A stretch of DNA of 64,000 nucleotides. It comes from an uncultured Flavobacteriales bacterium (GTDB lineage Bacteria > Bacteroidota > Bacteroidia > Flavobacteriales_D > Crocinitomicaceae). The stretch spans positions 62,001-126,000 of the forward strand of contig CAJAII010000008.1 in assembly GCA_903939755.1 (NCBI GenBank). The letters are read 5' to 3'. Positions 26,484 to 30,866 of this stretch are shown here, piece by piece. Position 1 is the first letter of the stretch; every line of letters starts with the position of its first letter. Below the pieces are notes generated by a model. It was not told the origin of the DNA, searched no databases, and saw nothing but the letters and a program-made list of their open reading frames with translations. Position numbers and translations under genes: made by a program.

Positions 26484-26556
26484 GGTACCTTAGCTCAGTT
26501 GGTAGAGCAAAGGACTGAAAATCCTTGTGTCCCTGGTTCGATTCCTGGAGGTACCA
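26484..26556 (+). tRNA. tRNA-Phe (GAA)
   Basis: A complete 73-base cloverleaf. The acceptor stem is GGTACCT with AGGTACC, the D stem GCTC/GAGC, and the anticodon stem AAGGA/TCCTT around loop CTGAAAA with anticodon GAA. The T stem is CCTGG/CCTGG, which leaves a T-T mismatch in its middle pair. The CCA end is not encoded. The 3' tail from 26539 is repeated three more times downstream (see repeats). Confidence 0.93.
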
Positions 26557-26560
26557 CATT

Positions 26561-26590
26561 AAAACCCTGACCGAAACGTCAGGGTTTTTT
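26561..26590 (+). terminator. Terminator after tRNA-Phe
   Basis: Stem CCCTGAC (26565-26571), loop CGAAAC, stem GTCAGGG (26578-26584), then six T, with A-rich bases before the stem. A classical intrinsic terminator. Confidence 0.85.
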
Positions 26591-26625
26591 GTTTGTTACC
26601 AAACTTAAATTTCCATTGTGTTCCT

Positions 26626-26641
26626 GTGCGCCGCGGCGCAC
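26626..26641. repeat. Palindrome 1 joined to tRNA-Phe tail copy 2
   Basis: GTGCGCCGCGGCGCAC is a perfect 16-bp palindrome. It is followed directly by GATTCCTGGAGGTACCAC, the 3' tail of tRNA-Phe, and preceded by TTGTGTTCCTG, close to the bases before the tRNA T loop. The palindrome therefore sits where the tRNA has GTT. Confidence 0.85.
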
Positions 26642-26660
26642 GATTCCTGGAGGTACCACA

Positions 26661-26692
26661 AAAATCCCCGTTATTTATAATGGGGATTTTTT
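26661..26692 (+). terminator. Terminator after tRNA tail copy 2
   Basis: AAAATCCCC (26661-26669) pairs with GGGGATTTT (26682-26690), and inner TTAT/ATAA extend the stem around a two-base TT loop, about 14 pairs with one G-T. T residues follow. It has a different sequence from the terminator after tail 1. Confidence 0.75.
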
Positions 26693-26702
26693 ATTTTTGG
26701 AG

Positions 26703-26948
26703 ATGTTTACAACCTATGTTTTATATTCTTCAAAAGTTCAAAAAAAGTATACGGGACATACCAATAATTTGGATCGAAGAATTAAAGAACATAATTTAGG
26801 ATTGCTCGGTATTTCTACCAAAAATAAAGGTCCTTGGGTTCTAATATACTCAGAACAGTTTAACACACGTTCAGAAGCAATCCTACGCGAAAAAGAACTT
26901 AAAACGGGTAAAGGCCGGGAATTTATAAAAAATCAAACCGGATTATGA
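26703..26948 (+). CDS. GIY-YIG family nuclease, small
   Basis: An 81-residue protein that is one GIY-YIG domain. Signatures are TTYVLYSS (GIY strand), KYTGHTNNLDRRIKEHN (YIG strand and catalytic Arg helix), then SEAILREKELKTGKGREFI, where the Glu and basic residues of UvrC/YhbQ-type domains fall. The start at 26703 is used because a longer in-frame reading would pass through the tRNA-tail repeat and terminator. It lies between the 121-bp repeats behind its own hairpin, which points to a role in spreading or maintaining the repeat unit. That role is inference. Confidence 0.85.
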   Translation: MFTTYVLYSSKVQKKYTGHTNNLDRRIKEHNLGLLGISTKNKGPWVLIYSEQFNTRSEAILREKELKTGKGREFIKNQTGL

Positions 26949-26962
26949 TAACTTGAGTCCCT

Positions 26963-26978
26963 GTCCGCCTAGGCGGAC
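26963..26978. repeat. Palindrome 2 joined to tRNA-Phe tail copy 3
   Basis: GTCCGCCTAGGCGGAC is a perfect 16-bp palindrome that differs in sequence from palindromes 1 and 3 but occupies the same place: CTTGAGTCCCTG before it and GATTCCTGGAGGTACCAC after it. Confidence 0.85.
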
Positions 26979-26999
26979 GATTCCTGGAGGTACCACATT

Positions 27000-27029
27000 A
27001 AAACCCTGACCGAAACGTCAGGGTTTTTT
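27000..27029 (+). terminator. Terminator after tRNA tail copy 3
   Basis: Identical to the tRNA-Phe terminator: CCCTGAC, loop CGAAAC, GTCAGGG and a T run. It also closes the transcript of the GIY-YIG gene. Confidence 0.85.
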
Positions 27030-27064
27030 GTTTGTTACCAAACTTAAATTTCCATTGTGTTACT

Positions 27065-27080
27065 GTGCGCCGCGGCGCAA
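27065..27080. repeat. Palindrome 3 joined to tRNA-Phe tail copy 4
   Basis: GTGCGCCGCGGCGCAA has a perfect 14-bp core (TGCGCCGCGGCGCA) with the outer pair lost. It is followed by tail GATTCCTGGAGGTACCAC at 27081-27098. Confidence 0.85.
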
Positions 27081-27099
27081 GATTCCTGGAGGTACCACG

Positions 27100-27170
27100 A
27101 AAACAAAACGAGAATGAGAGCGACCCTTCGATAAACTCAGGGCTAAAAGCGCCATTCTCGTTTTTGTTTT
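27100..27170 (+). terminator. Long hairpin after tRNA tail copy 4
   Basis: AAAACAAAACGAGAATG (27100-27116) pairs with CATTCTCG plus a T-rich run (27153-27170). The loop contains a nested hairpin CCCT-TCGATAAACTC-AGGG. It probably acts as the terminator for the last tail and marks the end of the repeat cluster. Confidence 0.6.
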
Positions 27171-27228
27171 ACATCATTTTCATTCTTTTCCAGGGATTAC
27201 TTGGTTCATAATTGATTCTCTCGTGATA

Positions 27229-27368: not shown

Positions 27369-28817
27369 ATGAAAAATAAAGTCGAAACTGAACCAAAAAA
27401 CATTTTTGTTCAATATCTAACAACTAAACAGAAAACATTGCAATCTGAAATAACTTTTAGCCAATTGATTAATGATAAAATATTGAATCAGAATGATCAA
27501 AAATCAATTAAATGCCTTTTCGAGTTGATTCTTTCTAATGAGATTGAACTTGCAAAATTTAGCAGATTTCCATATGACTTTACTATTAGATTGGCTAATT
27601 CTAAATTGAAATCTAAGGATTTAAGTATTTCAAATTGCATCGAATTATTTGAACTTTATACTAAAGAAATTTCTAGTACGATTGACTGGCTTGACTTTGA
27701 AAAGATTACAGATTGTGTTTTTTCAGAATATGGAATTTGTAAAGAAATTGAAAAATTGAAACTGCCAACACCTGAAATCAAAATTTTATTCAAAACGATC
27801 AATGGTTTTTTAATGGGGCAACACCCCGTTTTTCTCAATGATATGCAATTGAGAGCAGAAGAATTAATTCATTTTAGCTTATTACTTTCCGATGAAAATA
27901 ATAAACTAATTGAACAAGATTTAATTCGTCTGCAAATAGATCAAGATGGCGTTTCTATTCGGACATGCATCACTAAAAAAACATTGTCGCTGATTGGTAA
28001 TCTGAAACCAAATATGGAATTAATAATTCCTTCAACTACAAAAGATACGCTATTTGAGATAATTAAAGGTGATAATTTAGAGAGGGTTAATCTTCAATAC
28101 ACTACTGAAATTGATGCAACATTCACTGATTTTTGTTCGTTGTCTAAAAATATAAGTAAAAATGAAAATCTTTCAATCTTACTTTATGGAGCGCCAGGCA
28201 CTGGTAAGACAGAATTCGCAAAACAAGTTGCAAAAAATGTAAATGGCACATTGTATCAGCTAAATTTCCCACATATACAGTCTAAATGGATTGGAGAAAC
28301 CGAAAAAAATATTCGTCGCGTTTTCAATTTATATAGAGATGCTTGGCAAAAATCTAAAGAACCAATCATATTATTAATAAATGAAGCCGATGGATTAATG
28401 AATAAACGAGTGAGTGTAAATACGAGCAATGACGCTTTTGCAAATCAGGCTCAAACAGAATTGTTAGAACAGTTGGAAAAATTCGATGGAATATTGATTG
28501 CTACGACCAATCTTTTGGGGAATATTGACACGGCATTCCATAGAAGGTTTTTATTCAAAACGGAAATACATGCTCCGGATGAAATGAGTAGAAGTAACTA
28601 CTTAAAAAGCAGCGCTATTTATCCATTGTTAAACAGTTCTCAAATAGCTATGCTAAATAGCATTTCCTTTACCATTGCTGATTTGAAAAACATGGAACAA
28701 AAAATCGGTTTAATTCAGCGCATTAGACTTCTATCTTCAAAAGATCTTGATGCCTTATTCATAAGTGAAGGATTAATAAAGAACACTTCCAAGGCCATCG
28801 GTTATGCCATTAATTAA
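27369..28817 (+). CDS. AAA+ ATPase with unknown N-terminal domain
   Basis: A 482-residue protein. Residues 1-250 match nothing I recognise. The AAA core has Walker A GAPGTGKT (274-281), the pore/substrate segment KWIGETEKNIRRVF, Walker B ILLINEAD (N338, E339), sensor 1 ATTN (378-381) and arginine finger HRRF (391-394). The first Walker B acid is Asn, as in many NEAD-type AAA ATPases, while the catalytic Glu is kept. It is the first gene of the accessory region, with a dyad cluster and a shared promoter motif upstream. It may remodel the partner proteins encoded downstream. Confidence 0.85.
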   Translation: MKNKVETEPKNIFVQYLTTKQKTLQSEITFSQLINDKILNQNDQKSIKCLFELILSNEIELAKFSRFPYDFTIRLANSKLKSKDLSISNCIELFELYTKEISSTIDWLDFEKITDCVFSEYGICKEIEKLKLPTPEIKILFKTINGFLMGQHPVFLNDMQLRAEELIHFSLLLSDENNKLIEQDLIRLQIDQDGVSIRTCITKKTLSLIGNLKPNMELIIPSTTKDTLFEIIKGDNLERVNLQYTTEIDATFTDFCSLSKNISKNENLSILLYGAPGTGKTEFAKQVAKNVNGTLYQLNFPHIQSKWIGETEKNIRRVFNLYRDAWQKSKEPIILLINEADGLMNKRVSVNTSNDAFANQAQTELLEQLEKFDGILIATTNLLGNIDTAFHRRFLFKTEIHAPDEMSRSNYLKSSAIYPLLNSSQIAMLNSISFTIADLKNMEQKIGLIQRIRLLSSKDLDALFISEGLIKNTSKAIGYAIN

Positions 28818-28881
28818 TAGTTTATTAGGTTATTTTCAAAAATCATTTTTTTTAACAAATTATAAATATTAAGTTCGTTAT

Positions 28882-29490
28882 ATGACTACTAAAGATTTCA
28901 CCCAACTTTTTCCTGAGATTTTAAATCCAGCTGTTTCTTTATCCAATTTAAAGGCCTTGTGTCGTTCAAATAGATTTGAATTGGATGATATGACTTTTTG
29001 TTTGCATGACTTTGCATTGGTAAAAAATAATTATCCAGGTTATTTAGCAAATCCAGGCGGCTACCTTTGGAAAATAGTTAAAAATTCAATAAACAAGGGC
29101 TACAGGGGAATTAAGGTTAATTACGCTTCTGTTGATGAAATAAAATCAATTGATGAAATTCCAGAATTTGATTTAAGGGATATTAAACAAAAGTTGCGTG
29201 ATTTCACAAGAGATGTGAATAATTTAAGTCTTCCTCCAAGTTATTATAGAGTTATTAATTTGATTATCATGCTTTGTCCAATGGATCATGAATCATTTTT
29301 TGAATTCATGGAAGAACTTTACCTAGAAGCAGAAAAGATAGGAATCTCAAGAGAAAATGTTAGACAAATTCTTTCTAGAATTAGGAATTTTTTAAAAGGA
29401 AATAATGGATTAAGAGATACCATGTCATTTATTACTTTCGACCCAAAGCGTGTAGAAATTGTCGATTTGTTTTTAAATAGTGAAGAATAA
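28882..29490 (+). CDS. Possible sigma-70-like regulator
   Basis: A 202-residue protein. Residues 34-72 (LDDMTFCLHDF to NPGGYLWKIVKNSINKG) resemble sigma region 2.4, where ECF factors have a NPxxWLYRIVRN-like segment. Residues 146-172 (EAEKIGISRENVRQILSRIR) look like the region 4 helix-turn-helix that reads the -35 element. A 30-residue C-terminal extension follows. The match is by eye and divergent, so another HTH regulator is possible. It stands 64 bases after the AAA+ gene. If it is a sigma factor, the shared TGTCACA motif is its likely target. Confidence 0.5.
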   Translation: MTTKDFTQLFPEILNPAVSLSNLKALCRSNRFELDDMTFCLHDFALVKNNYPGYLANPGGYLWKIVKNSINKGYRGIKVNYASVDEIKSIDEIPEFDLRDIKQKLRDFTRDVNNLSLPPSYYRVINLIIMLCPMDHESFFEFMEELYLEAEKIGISRENVRQILSRIRNFLKGNNGLRDTMSFITFDPKRVEIVDLFLNSEE

Positions 29491-29514
29491 AAATAATTTT
29501 AAAACCATAAAAAA

Positions 29515-30336
29515 ATGAATATAACAGATTATAACTATCCCATTGGACAGCCAAGAGGGTTTTTTAACGGTCGTGTTCCATTAGCAACACCAGCAACATT
29601 TCCATCTACGTACGATATTGATTTTTTGCGTTATTTATACTTTCTATGTATAAAAAATGCTGAAGGAGATTATCCTATTGAGATAAATAGAGAAGAAATA
29701 GATAAAGCTTTTCAAAATGAGGGTTCTTGCAAACCAAGAATAAAAAAAATATTAATTGGTGAAGCTCCTCCTCCAACTTATCTAAATTATTTTTATAATC
29801 CATCTCCTTTAAGATGGAATGCAGGAACAGGTAATCCAACAGTGGGACAAGCATGGACAAGCGCGATTAAAAACACAATGTTTCCAGGAATTGCATTTCC
29901 GGACACAATTTCATTTTTGAAGGCTTGCGCACAAAAAGGGTTCTTATTATTAGATCTTTTTCCGTACAATATTATTTACTCGGGAAGAAGGACAACTGTA
30001 AGATATAGAAATGCTTGTATCAGTGCATTTGGAGGAACATCTCCATATCCCCATAATATAATAAACACATTAACTTCGATTAAATGTTGTTTGCATGAGG
30101 AAATATCTATCTCTTTTGCTATGAAAAGTTTTGGTGAAATCATTTTAAATGATGCTAGTTGTGTTGCTAATATTACACTTTGGCTTGCAGCAAATGGAAT
30201 AATATTATATCCTGCCGGTCCAATTAATTCGCCTCGTTTAATACCAGTCAAGGATAGCTCAAAATATTTGAGAGTCTGTGGAAGAAGATATTTATTAGCT
30301 CCTTGTAGTATTTTAATGGGCATAGCTGGAATTTGA
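29515..30336 (+). CDS. Unknown protein, possibly uracil-DNA-glycosylase-like
   Basis: A 273-residue protein with no signal peptide or membrane helix. KKILIGEAPPPTYLNYFY (about residues 77-94) resembles motif 1 of UDG-superfamily enzymes (GEAPG), and GFLLLDLFPYNI lies where a following core strand would be. The motif 2 histidine region typical of UDGs is not obvious. If correct, it would act on a base in nucleic acid, fitting a region that also encodes NADAR proteins. Low confidence in the function; the coding call itself is sound (24-base gap after the sigma-like gene, same strand). Confidence 0.6.
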   Translation: MNITDYNYPIGQPRGFFNGRVPLATPATFPSTYDIDFLRYLYFLCIKNAEGDYPIEINREEIDKAFQNEGSCKPRIKKILIGEAPPPTYLNYFYNPSPLRWNAGTGNPTVGQAWTSAIKNTMFPGIAFPDTISFLKACAQKGFLLLDLFPYNIIYSGRRTTVRYRNACISAFGGTSPYPHNIINTLTSIKCCLHEEISISFAMKSFGEIILNDASCVANITLWLAANGIILYPAGPINSPRLIPVKDSSKYLRVCGRRYLLAPCSILMGIAGI

Positions 30337-30365
30337 CAAAATAATTTTAATATTTTTAATTCAAT

Positions 30366-30866
30366 ATGTCTCTCTGGTTTGGAAAAATAAAAGAACCTAA
30401 CGGTTGGATGGGAAATATGGCTCCGTATCCTATTACCCATAATGGTCAAGTTTGGCGAACAAGCGAAGCCTTGTTTCAATCGATGCGTTTCAACGATCCT
30501 CTTATTAAAGAGATCATTCGAGCTGAAAATAGCCCATTAGTGGCAAAATGGAAAGCGAAAAGTCATCGCGCACATTATATTATTACTCCAATGTCACCTC
30601 AAGATATTGCGAATATGGAGGCATGCGTTTTATTGAAATATCAACAACATCCAAAAATAGCAAGTATGCTAATGGCAACTGGAAAGCACCTTATTTATGA
30701 AGACGCAAGTAATCGAAAAGGAGTAAATGATTTATTTTGGGGAACGCATCGTGATCCTAAAAATCCTATAATGCCCATTAATGGACAAAATATGATGGGG
30801 GAGATATTGATGAAAGTTAGAGGAATTTTACTTGCTAATGCGGCACTACCAAAACCAATTATATAA
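30366..30866 (+). CDS. NADAR domain protein, copy 1
   Basis: A 166-residue single NADAR domain. Signatures are GWMGNMAPYPI (residues 13-23), VWRTSEALFQSMRF with the conserved W30 and E34, SPLVAKWKAK, and the C-terminal FWG-(x)n-GQNMMGEILMKVR. NADAR enzymes are N-glycosidase-like; known members act on riboflavin-pathway intermediates or remove ADP-ribose from guanine bases in nucleic acid. The neighbouring ART-like gene favours the second role, by inference. A related copy lies at 33602. Confidence 0.88.
   Translation: MSLWFGKIKEPNGWMGNMAPYPITHNGQVWRTSEALFQSMRFNDPLIKEIIRAENSPLVAKWKAKSHRAHYIITPMSPQDIANMEACVLLKYQQHPKIASMLMATGKHLIYEDASNRKGVNDLFWGTHRDPKNPIMPINGQNMMGEILMKVRGILLANAALPKPII

Follow-up and report, generated by a model that had tools for sequence, protein, structure and literature searches.

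How does a single tRNA gene come to be followed by three further copies of its own 3′ end, each behind a palindrome, with a small nuclease gene lying between two of them? The question is raised by a window of 64,000 nucleotides (the whole stretch of DNA analysed here) from an uncultured Flavobacteriales bacterium, in which a reading made from the sequence alone had seen a small mobile or recombination-prone unit that copies tRNA tails. Our answer is that the unit, which recurs beside tRNA genes in many other genomes, looks like an undescribed kind of selfish element and that its mobility is probable; the best reading is a mobile, integrase-free nuclease element that restores the tRNA gene it occupies, with cutting and movement presumed from its layout and distribution. 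No description of such units was found in open-access PubMed Central among the matches listed.

The intact tRNA-Phe(GAA) gene (26484-26557, plus strand, called by ARAGORN and Rfam) is the sole match in the window genome at an E-value of 1e-10. Its 3′ tail, GATTCCTGGAGGTACCAC, recurs exactly at 26642-26659, 26979-26996 and 27081-27098, all on the plus strand, and three further exact 18-mer copies inside 560 bp exclude a chance origin. Each of these broken copies has the same layout of 11 tRNA-like bases, a palindrome and then (C/A)GATTCCTGGAGGTACCAC, with the palindrome standing where tRNA-Phe has the GTT of its T-loop region. The three palindromes, at 26627-26640 (TGCGCCGCGGCGCA), 26964-26977 (TCCGCCTAGGCGGA) and 27066-27079 (TGCGCCGCGGCGCA again), are perfect over 14 bp, and the first two lengthen to 16 bp with the adjoining bases. 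The 11 bases ahead of them are TTGTGTTCCTG (26616-26626, plus strand), TTGAGTCCCTG (26953-26963, plus strand) and TTGTGTTACTG, against TTGTGTCCCTG in tRNA-Phe itself. Within the 2.9-Mb genome, the 16-nt TGTGCGCCGCGGCGCA, which contains the first palindrome, has no sites beyond its two in this array when up to two mismatches are allowed.

Terminator-like hairpins follow all four tails on the plus strand. A strict terminator scan returned three against 1.2 expected in shuffles: one directly behind the intact tRNA (26561-26588), an identical one at 27000-27027, and one at 26660-26691. The fourth, behind the last tail, lies outside the strict list; it is a longer imperfect stem (27100-27169) with inverted arms at 27100-27116 and 27153-27169, and it resembles the terminator found at this locus in four relatives (G320, G208, G305 and G070). 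In two of these, G305 and G070, the similar terminator stands directly behind the tRNA, so we take the last tail copy to be what was originally the tRNA gene's 3′ end, and the terminator behind it to be the original one. Between the second and third tails lies an 81-aa ORF (26703-26948, plus strand) that is a GIY-YIG domain and nothing more (PF01541, E 4.4e-16, 59 bits), with its catalytic positions kept. On either side of it stand two blocks, 26539-26664 and 26978-27103, of 98% identity; the sequence-only reading had noticed them but gave them 121 bp, and their length is 126 nt. Its account of the four tails, of the GC-rich palindromes of 14-16 bp and the tRNA-like bases ahead of them, and of the hairpins behind all four tails was otherwise borne out.

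The window thus resolves into a single autonomous unit and a mini-unit, lacking the nuclease, that is present twice. Behind the intact tRNA comes a mini-unit (terminator, palindrome), then the autonomous unit, which begins with the second tail and continues through terminator, nuclease and short tRNA stretch to the second palindrome as its right end, then a mini-unit copy beginning with the third tail, and finally the last tail, which has a terminator to itself. In agreement with the sequence-only reading, a scan of six window ORFs (the nuclease, the upstream pantothenate kinase and four downstream ORFs) detected no integrase domain. A Rfam scan of the window at gathering scores returned two tRNAs only and no catalytic group I intron RNA, and neither NCBIfam nor PHROGs gave a match to the nuclease protein. 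Downstream of the units, positions 27369-30866 hold an AAA ATPase gene, two ORFs without a Pfam match and a NADAR-domain gene.

A second example lies at a contig end of the same genome (L006), at another tRNA and with a decayed GIY-YIG ORF. On the minus strand this locus reads tRNA 3′ part, terminator, decayed ORF, tRNA 5′ half, hairpin CCCGCATGTGCGGG and 3′ half of the same tRNA, the hairpin being placed in the anticodon region. There are seven GIY-YIG matches in the genome, and tRNA pieces adjoin the window copy and L006; L001, L002 and L007 had none in the stretches inspected, and L004 and L005 were checked for tRNAs by ARAGORN alone. Some GIY-YIG loci have surroundings of another kind. At L001:1360-1930 and L002:1280-1480, more distant GIY-YIG ORFs without a tRNA adjoin hairpin-rich sequence, with direct repeats of about 90 bp (94%) on either side at L001. 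At L007 and L068, GIY-YIG ORFs come after a repeated non-tRNA motif, GCCTCTATGGCTGGAG, and a terminator, with no match to a Rfam family.

Comparison of tRNA-Phe loci among relatives revealed occupied, relic and plain sites. The 160-nt upstream flanks of G320, G208 and G284 are 93-95% identical to that of the window, and behind these closely matching flanks G320 carries one autonomous unit and G208 one mini-unit, where the window has three units; G320 and G208 also carry a palindrome identical to the second one of the window at its place. G284 retains a relic consisting of the element's terminator and the first bases of the ORF, and G300, in which about 60 nt of upstream flank are nearly the same as in the window, retains the element's terminator only. 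In G305 and G070, the tRNA-Phe gene passes directly into a terminator like the original one of the window; that of G305 shares 24 identical bases, AAAACAAAACGAGAATGAGAGCGA, with the window's last terminator, while longer gapped alignments of the terminators score 0.79-0.83 against 0.77 in the control and so separate poorly. Because their upstream flank has diverged (0.77), these two are near rather than perfect empty sites. Occupancy is patchy: among 50 tRNA-Phe loci of the genus with at least 500 nt downstream, the ORF is present in five and a mini-unit in one further. At two of these loci (L124, L133), a tail-like copy lies about 0.8 kb downstream with no ORF.

A parallel series was found at tRNA-Arg(TCT) in another genus, where inspection by eye showed a broken head before the intact tRNA in 9 of 13 assessable genomes and a plain gene in the other 4. 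The heads are broken in the D-loop or anticodon arm by TCCGCC or TCCCGA hairpins (by eye), and a nuclease stood within the 820 nt inspected in two of the genomes. In G124, the intact tRNA-Arg is of one allele and the broken tail of another, the latter resembling the plain tRNA of G127; this is the pattern expected if the unit carried in its own tRNA part, although the stretch behind the broken tail matches G127 at just 38 of 52 positions. G326 was considered as an empty site and dropped, as its contig begins at the tRNA and the acceptor stem pairs poorly. Between L349 and L359, the loop of the tRNA-Arg(TCT) terminator lies in opposite orientation, as if the hairpin had been flipped (by eye; L359 begins at a contig end). 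Both series thus hold occupied and unoccupied alleles among relatives, and a restored tRNA with its displaced part at the far end is present in the tRNA-Phe series and in both of the locus sets described below.

Of 299 genomes of the order, 109 have matches to the window protein; the better-scoring places were fetched and one duplicate was dropped, giving 89 order-level loci. A second, multi-phylum set came from a search of named genomes, one per species, in which the best 80 of 459 matches gave 79 loci. A same-strand ARAGORN tRNA lies within 600 bp of the ORF at 73/89 order-level loci and at 71/79 loci of the multi-phylum set (best 80 of 459 matches), and an opposite-strand one at 1/89 and 1/79. 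In the latter set, again limited to the best 80 of 459, same-strand tRNAs reach 1.55 per kb within 300 bp and 0.20 at 300-600 bp, then 0.00-0.10 in the rings from 600 to 2400 bp and 0.15 in the last, short ring at 2400-2700 bp; opposite-strand tRNAs within 300 bp number zero. Part of the same tRNA is repeated across the ORF at 54/89 loci of the order and a partial second copy occurs at 57/79 of the multi-phylum set (best 80 of 459), a few partial copies being neighbouring other tRNAs (e.g., L170) and a few called tRNAs being odd (L081, L216). Taken over tRNA-bearing loci, these are 54/73 and 57/71, against 27/327 and 15/319 when a tRNA of another kind is swapped in.

The joints between the tRNA parts are marked by hairpins in both sets. 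Stems of at least 6 bp occur at 41/54 order-level joints and of at least 7 bp at 34/54, against 10.5% (3.4%) of random windows drawn from the same loci (n = 1080); the multi-phylum joints (best 80 of 459) give 40/57 and 30/57, against 9.9% (2.7%; n = 1140). A 6-bp stem is lacking at 13/54 and 17/57. In a matched control, which takes the best copy over all ORF hits per locus and so counts one more stem in each set, stems of at least 6 bp were counted at 42/54 and 41/57 broken joints, and at 6/54 and 11/57 of the equivalent places in the called tRNA. The layout recurs at about 20 kinds of tRNA, each with pieces of its own tRNA.

No called tRNA lies nearby at 16/89 order-level and 8/79 multi-phylum loci. 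At least five of those 16 hold tRNA pieces by eye (L033, L057, L061, L063, L083), and L041, also without a called tRNA, has a partial one; among 20 loci compared with Rfam, most of them lacking a called tRNA, two (L028, L041) gave matches, to tRNA only. Four of the 16 (L035, L038, L046, L052) hold a related nuclease clade within what by eye resembles an IS91-type transposase gene, near its HUH motif and with inverted ends resembling CCCCGTTAGAAAT.

Within the multi-phylum set (best 80 of 459 matches), 50 loci are from Bacteroidota, 22 fall under 16 other phylum labels and 7 are unlabelled. The labels include several Patescibacteria lineages, Ignavibacteriota, Verrucomicrobiota, Planctomycetota and Omnitrophota; as most non-Bacteroidota loci come from metagenome bins, individual labels may be in error. 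Cultured carriers include Alkaliflexus imshenetskii (L161), Flavobacterium tiangeerense (L182) and Cecembia rubra (L198). Phage and plasmid records gave only distant GIY-YIG matches, at no more than 45% identity. Among 25 loci on viral contigs, tRNA pieces with hairpins can be seen by eye in the four best (L321-L324), although these sequences may be host DNA, and the other 21 have an ARAGORN tRNA within 600 bp in two cases only.

The unit occurs in two forms. A tail-form locus runs from the intact tRNA through terminator, nuclease, short tRNA stretch and hairpin to a second tRNA tail; a head-form locus runs from the tRNA head through hairpin, short stretch and nuclease to the intact tRNA. The idea of a unit that copies tRNA tails is therefore supported by the recurrence and has to be widened, since heads are copied as well. 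With positions numbered from the first base of the called gene and both sets pooled, 54/63 tail-form joints lie at 43-60 and 29/46 head-form joints at 15-30, roughly the D-loop, the 3′ edge of the anticodon arm and the T-loop. Units can also be stacked: two or more nuclease ORF hits per fetched stretch were found at 12/89 order-level and 10/79 multi-phylum loci (best 80 of 459), with clear tandem units by eye at L019 and L020. Where measured (the window, L019, L020), units span about 0.1-0.34 kb. At L028:1-220 and L357, tandem broken tRNA-Arg heads with hairpins stand straight before the intact tRNA with no nuclease ORF between, and these arrays are probably non-autonomous units. L281, in G124, holds two tRNA-His-like fragments 874 bp apart, each split by TCCGCCGCGGCGGA in the D-loop region (by eye).

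All four of Tyr5, Tyr16, Arg26 and Glu63, which we take to be the catalytic positions with the roles they have in GIY-YIG enzymes generally, are kept in 164 of 165 proteins. Selection on the nuclease is purifying, with dN/dS of 0.04-0.24 in 9 of 11 pairs (dS being saturated in the other two) and about 0.1 between the window ORF and its G320 copy. Its closest solved relatives by sequence are UPF0213 (1ywl, E 4.5e-13) and SLX1 (7wme, E 1.2e-7), and the I-TevI domain is matched far more weakly (E 0.025). On quick nuclease trees of about 76 columns with many open forks, the tRNA target changes 21 times at the order level (83 rows) against 54-64 in shuffles, and 53 times on a larger tree (142 rows) against at least 95 in 300 shuffles. 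Hairpin class, assigned by our own rule, changes 17 times on the larger tree (81 rows) against at least 37 in 300 shuffles. The tail or head form changes 10 times at the order level, which is not clearly different from shuffles (mean 14, minimum 10). That clades track their tRNA target could partly reflect inheritance in place.

The palindrome noted by the sequence-only reading is one class of a recurring hairpin. By our own rule, the commonest class is CCGCC (TCCGCC..GGCGGA and kin), with Phe, Met, Asn, Arg(TCT), Pro, Lys, Ser and one Val among its targets, and the others are TCCGTC..GACGGA (Met), TCCCGA-like (Val, Leu, Ala, Asp) and CCTGCC-like (Arg, few others). Hairpins of the commonest class are also dispersed. 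The pattern TCCGCC-N2-4-GGCGGA occurs 18 times in the window genome and, across 150 genomes counted, at most 75 times (in G124), with a reversed control of 0 in both; elsewhere in the order, pattern and control each number 1-4 in some genomes. At least five occur in 17/72 nuclease-positive and 3/78 negative genomes (p = 5e-4, phylogeny ignored), and this association is only a lead. By eye, the dispersed copies of the window genome lie mostly within longer repeat-rich sequence, and several in G124 and G052 are bare 14-bp palindromes. Empty-site comparisons for dispersed hairpins had a mixed outcome. At rpmI-rplT, the hairpin occupies a place where relatives have different bases of similar length, which is a replacement and not a clean insertion; at the L293 site, by eye, L310 reads GATCA-TTGAAAAG and G052 reads GATAA-hairpin-TTGAAAAG.

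We consider it likely that these loci represent a mobile family of very small tRNA-gene elements whose insertion is started by the nuclease and guided by the tRNA, whichever site is cut. A unit comprises the missing tRNA part, often a terminator, the GIY-YIG gene, a short tRNA stretch from beyond the joint and the hairpin. A break made by the nuclease would start recombination, and the carried tRNA part would serve both as an address, through its homology to the same tRNA gene, and as a patch that keeps the tRNA whole, in which case nuclease clades would be expected to stay with one tRNA. The tail form would arise if a circle of tail, terminator, nuclease, short tRNA stretch and hairpin crossed over inside the tail of an intact gene, and the head form would be the mirror image of that crossover. 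As to where the break falls, we lean modestly toward the hairpin joint over the intact tRNA gene, since an uninterrupted tRNA persists beside the nuclease, the bare domain is related to structure-specific nucleases (SLX1) and the hairpin is the part common to many tRNA targets and phyla; the excess of TCCGCC hairpins in nuclease-bearing genomes would also fit the hairpin as the acting site. A bolder proposal, which we offer tentatively, is a new transposition system in which a short hairpin would be the substrate of a minimal SLX1-like GIY-YIG nuclease and a captured tRNA piece would supply the address, so that one enzyme would have two outputs: homology-based insertion into rebuilt tRNA genes and the seeding of hairpins through the genome.

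The main rival to a break at the hairpin joint is classical free-standing homing, a variant of our best explanation with another cut site. Here, the nuclease would cut the uninterrupted tRNA at the joint, repair from the occupied allele would copy the element in, and the hairpin would merely block re-cutting of the broken copy. Nuclease clades that follow the kind of tRNA and joints that lie at preferred places in each tRNA speak for such a scheme, as does SegB, a GIY-YIG homing enzyme of T-even phages that PMC13096335 implicates in cutting tRNA-containing DNA. However, a called tRNA stands beside the nuclease at 73/89 and 71/79 loci (the latter among the best 80 of 459), so the site has not been destroyed as homing requires, an objection that holds only if the tRNA is the recognised site. 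Moreover, the protein comprises the GIY-YIG domain only and lacks a separate DNA-binding part, and homing gives no reason for a hairpin common to many targets. We regard homing of this kind as a serious candidate that falls short of being probable.

A less likely account, to which we give little weight, makes the hairpins independent mobile palindromes that nuclease elements merely tolerate in spare tRNA copies. It would explain the TCCGCC hairpins found elsewhere, 18 in the window genome and up to 75 in G124, some of them bare 14-bp palindromes, but the hairpin stands at the joint of two tRNA parts, its position is constant within a clade, and hairpin class goes with the nuclease tree. It is less probable still that the units are a device serving the host, by tRNA dosage control or defence, rather than selfish elements. 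Purifying selection on the nuclease would suit such a device, and nuclease genes adjoining tRNA genes could conceivably read tRNA transcription, yet presence is patchy (109/299 genomes, 5/50 tRNA-Phe loci) and there are decayed and truncated copies and arrays. The remnant of an integrase-borne island that had restored the tRNA 3′ end is very improbable: such islands usually leave a restored tRNA and a displaced tail, but the six scanned window ORFs hold no integrase domain, measured units are only about 0.1-0.34 kb (window, L019, L020), and the head form and the hairpins would be left unexplained. Finally, local tandem duplication in one strain, which the 98% identity of the two 126-nt blocks might suggest and which probably did produce one of the three window units as a recent local copy, is refuted as a full account by the same layout at other tRNA genes in many phyla, where the sequence-only reading had looked for its support.

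If the nuclease-started, tRNA-guided units are indeed mobile, they would be among the smallest autonomous mobile elements, made of an 81-aa enzyme, a 14-bp hairpin and a piece of tRNA, and they occupy essential genes across many phyla without destroying them. Stray GIY-YIG ORFs and many broken tRNA copies would then have an explanation. Target finding by a bare GIY-YIG domain can be put to the test in this system, and dispersed palindromes may be linked here to an enzyme.

Several known systems share single features with these units. Rickettsia palindromic elements are palindromes within genes that are longer and are not known to have an attached nuclease gene; the likeness lies in palindromes inserted into genes, and the units described here are shorter and bear a nuclease. 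In contrast to a group I intron in a tRNA gene, the window has no catalytic intron RNA by Rfam. Integrase-based elements that insert into tRNA genes restore the 3′ end and leave a displaced tail, as is seen here, but the window lacks an integrase, the measured units are below 0.4 kb and a head form exists. Among proteins, the closest solved relatives are UPF0213 and SLX1; SLX1 serves the host in repair and has partner domains, and we know of no mobile context for either. RAYT is a HUH transposase, whereas the enzyme of the window unit is GIY-YIG only, without a Y1 HUH transposase, and its hairpin is tied to tRNA parts. REP and REPIN sequences with RAYT, short dispersed palindromes tied to one enzyme family (PMC3733652, PMC8049555), resemble the short palindromes dispersed through the genomes studied here. 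A nuclease of a homing family is present in our units as well (PF01541, catalytic positions in 164/165), and SegB of T-even phages, as described in PMC13096335, is an intron-free GIY-YIG nuclease beside tRNA genes that is implicated in cutting tRNA-containing DNA and in amplification by recombination. The likeness to SegB and other free-standing GIY-YIG homing endonucleases is an intronless GIY-YIG nuclease beside tRNA genes. Unlike SegB, the units described here have a bare catalytic domain, a hairpin at the joint and a carried tRNA part that leaves one working, uninterrupted tRNA, and they reside in cellular genomes of many phyla. Of the known systems, SegB is the nearest in action to the units described here.
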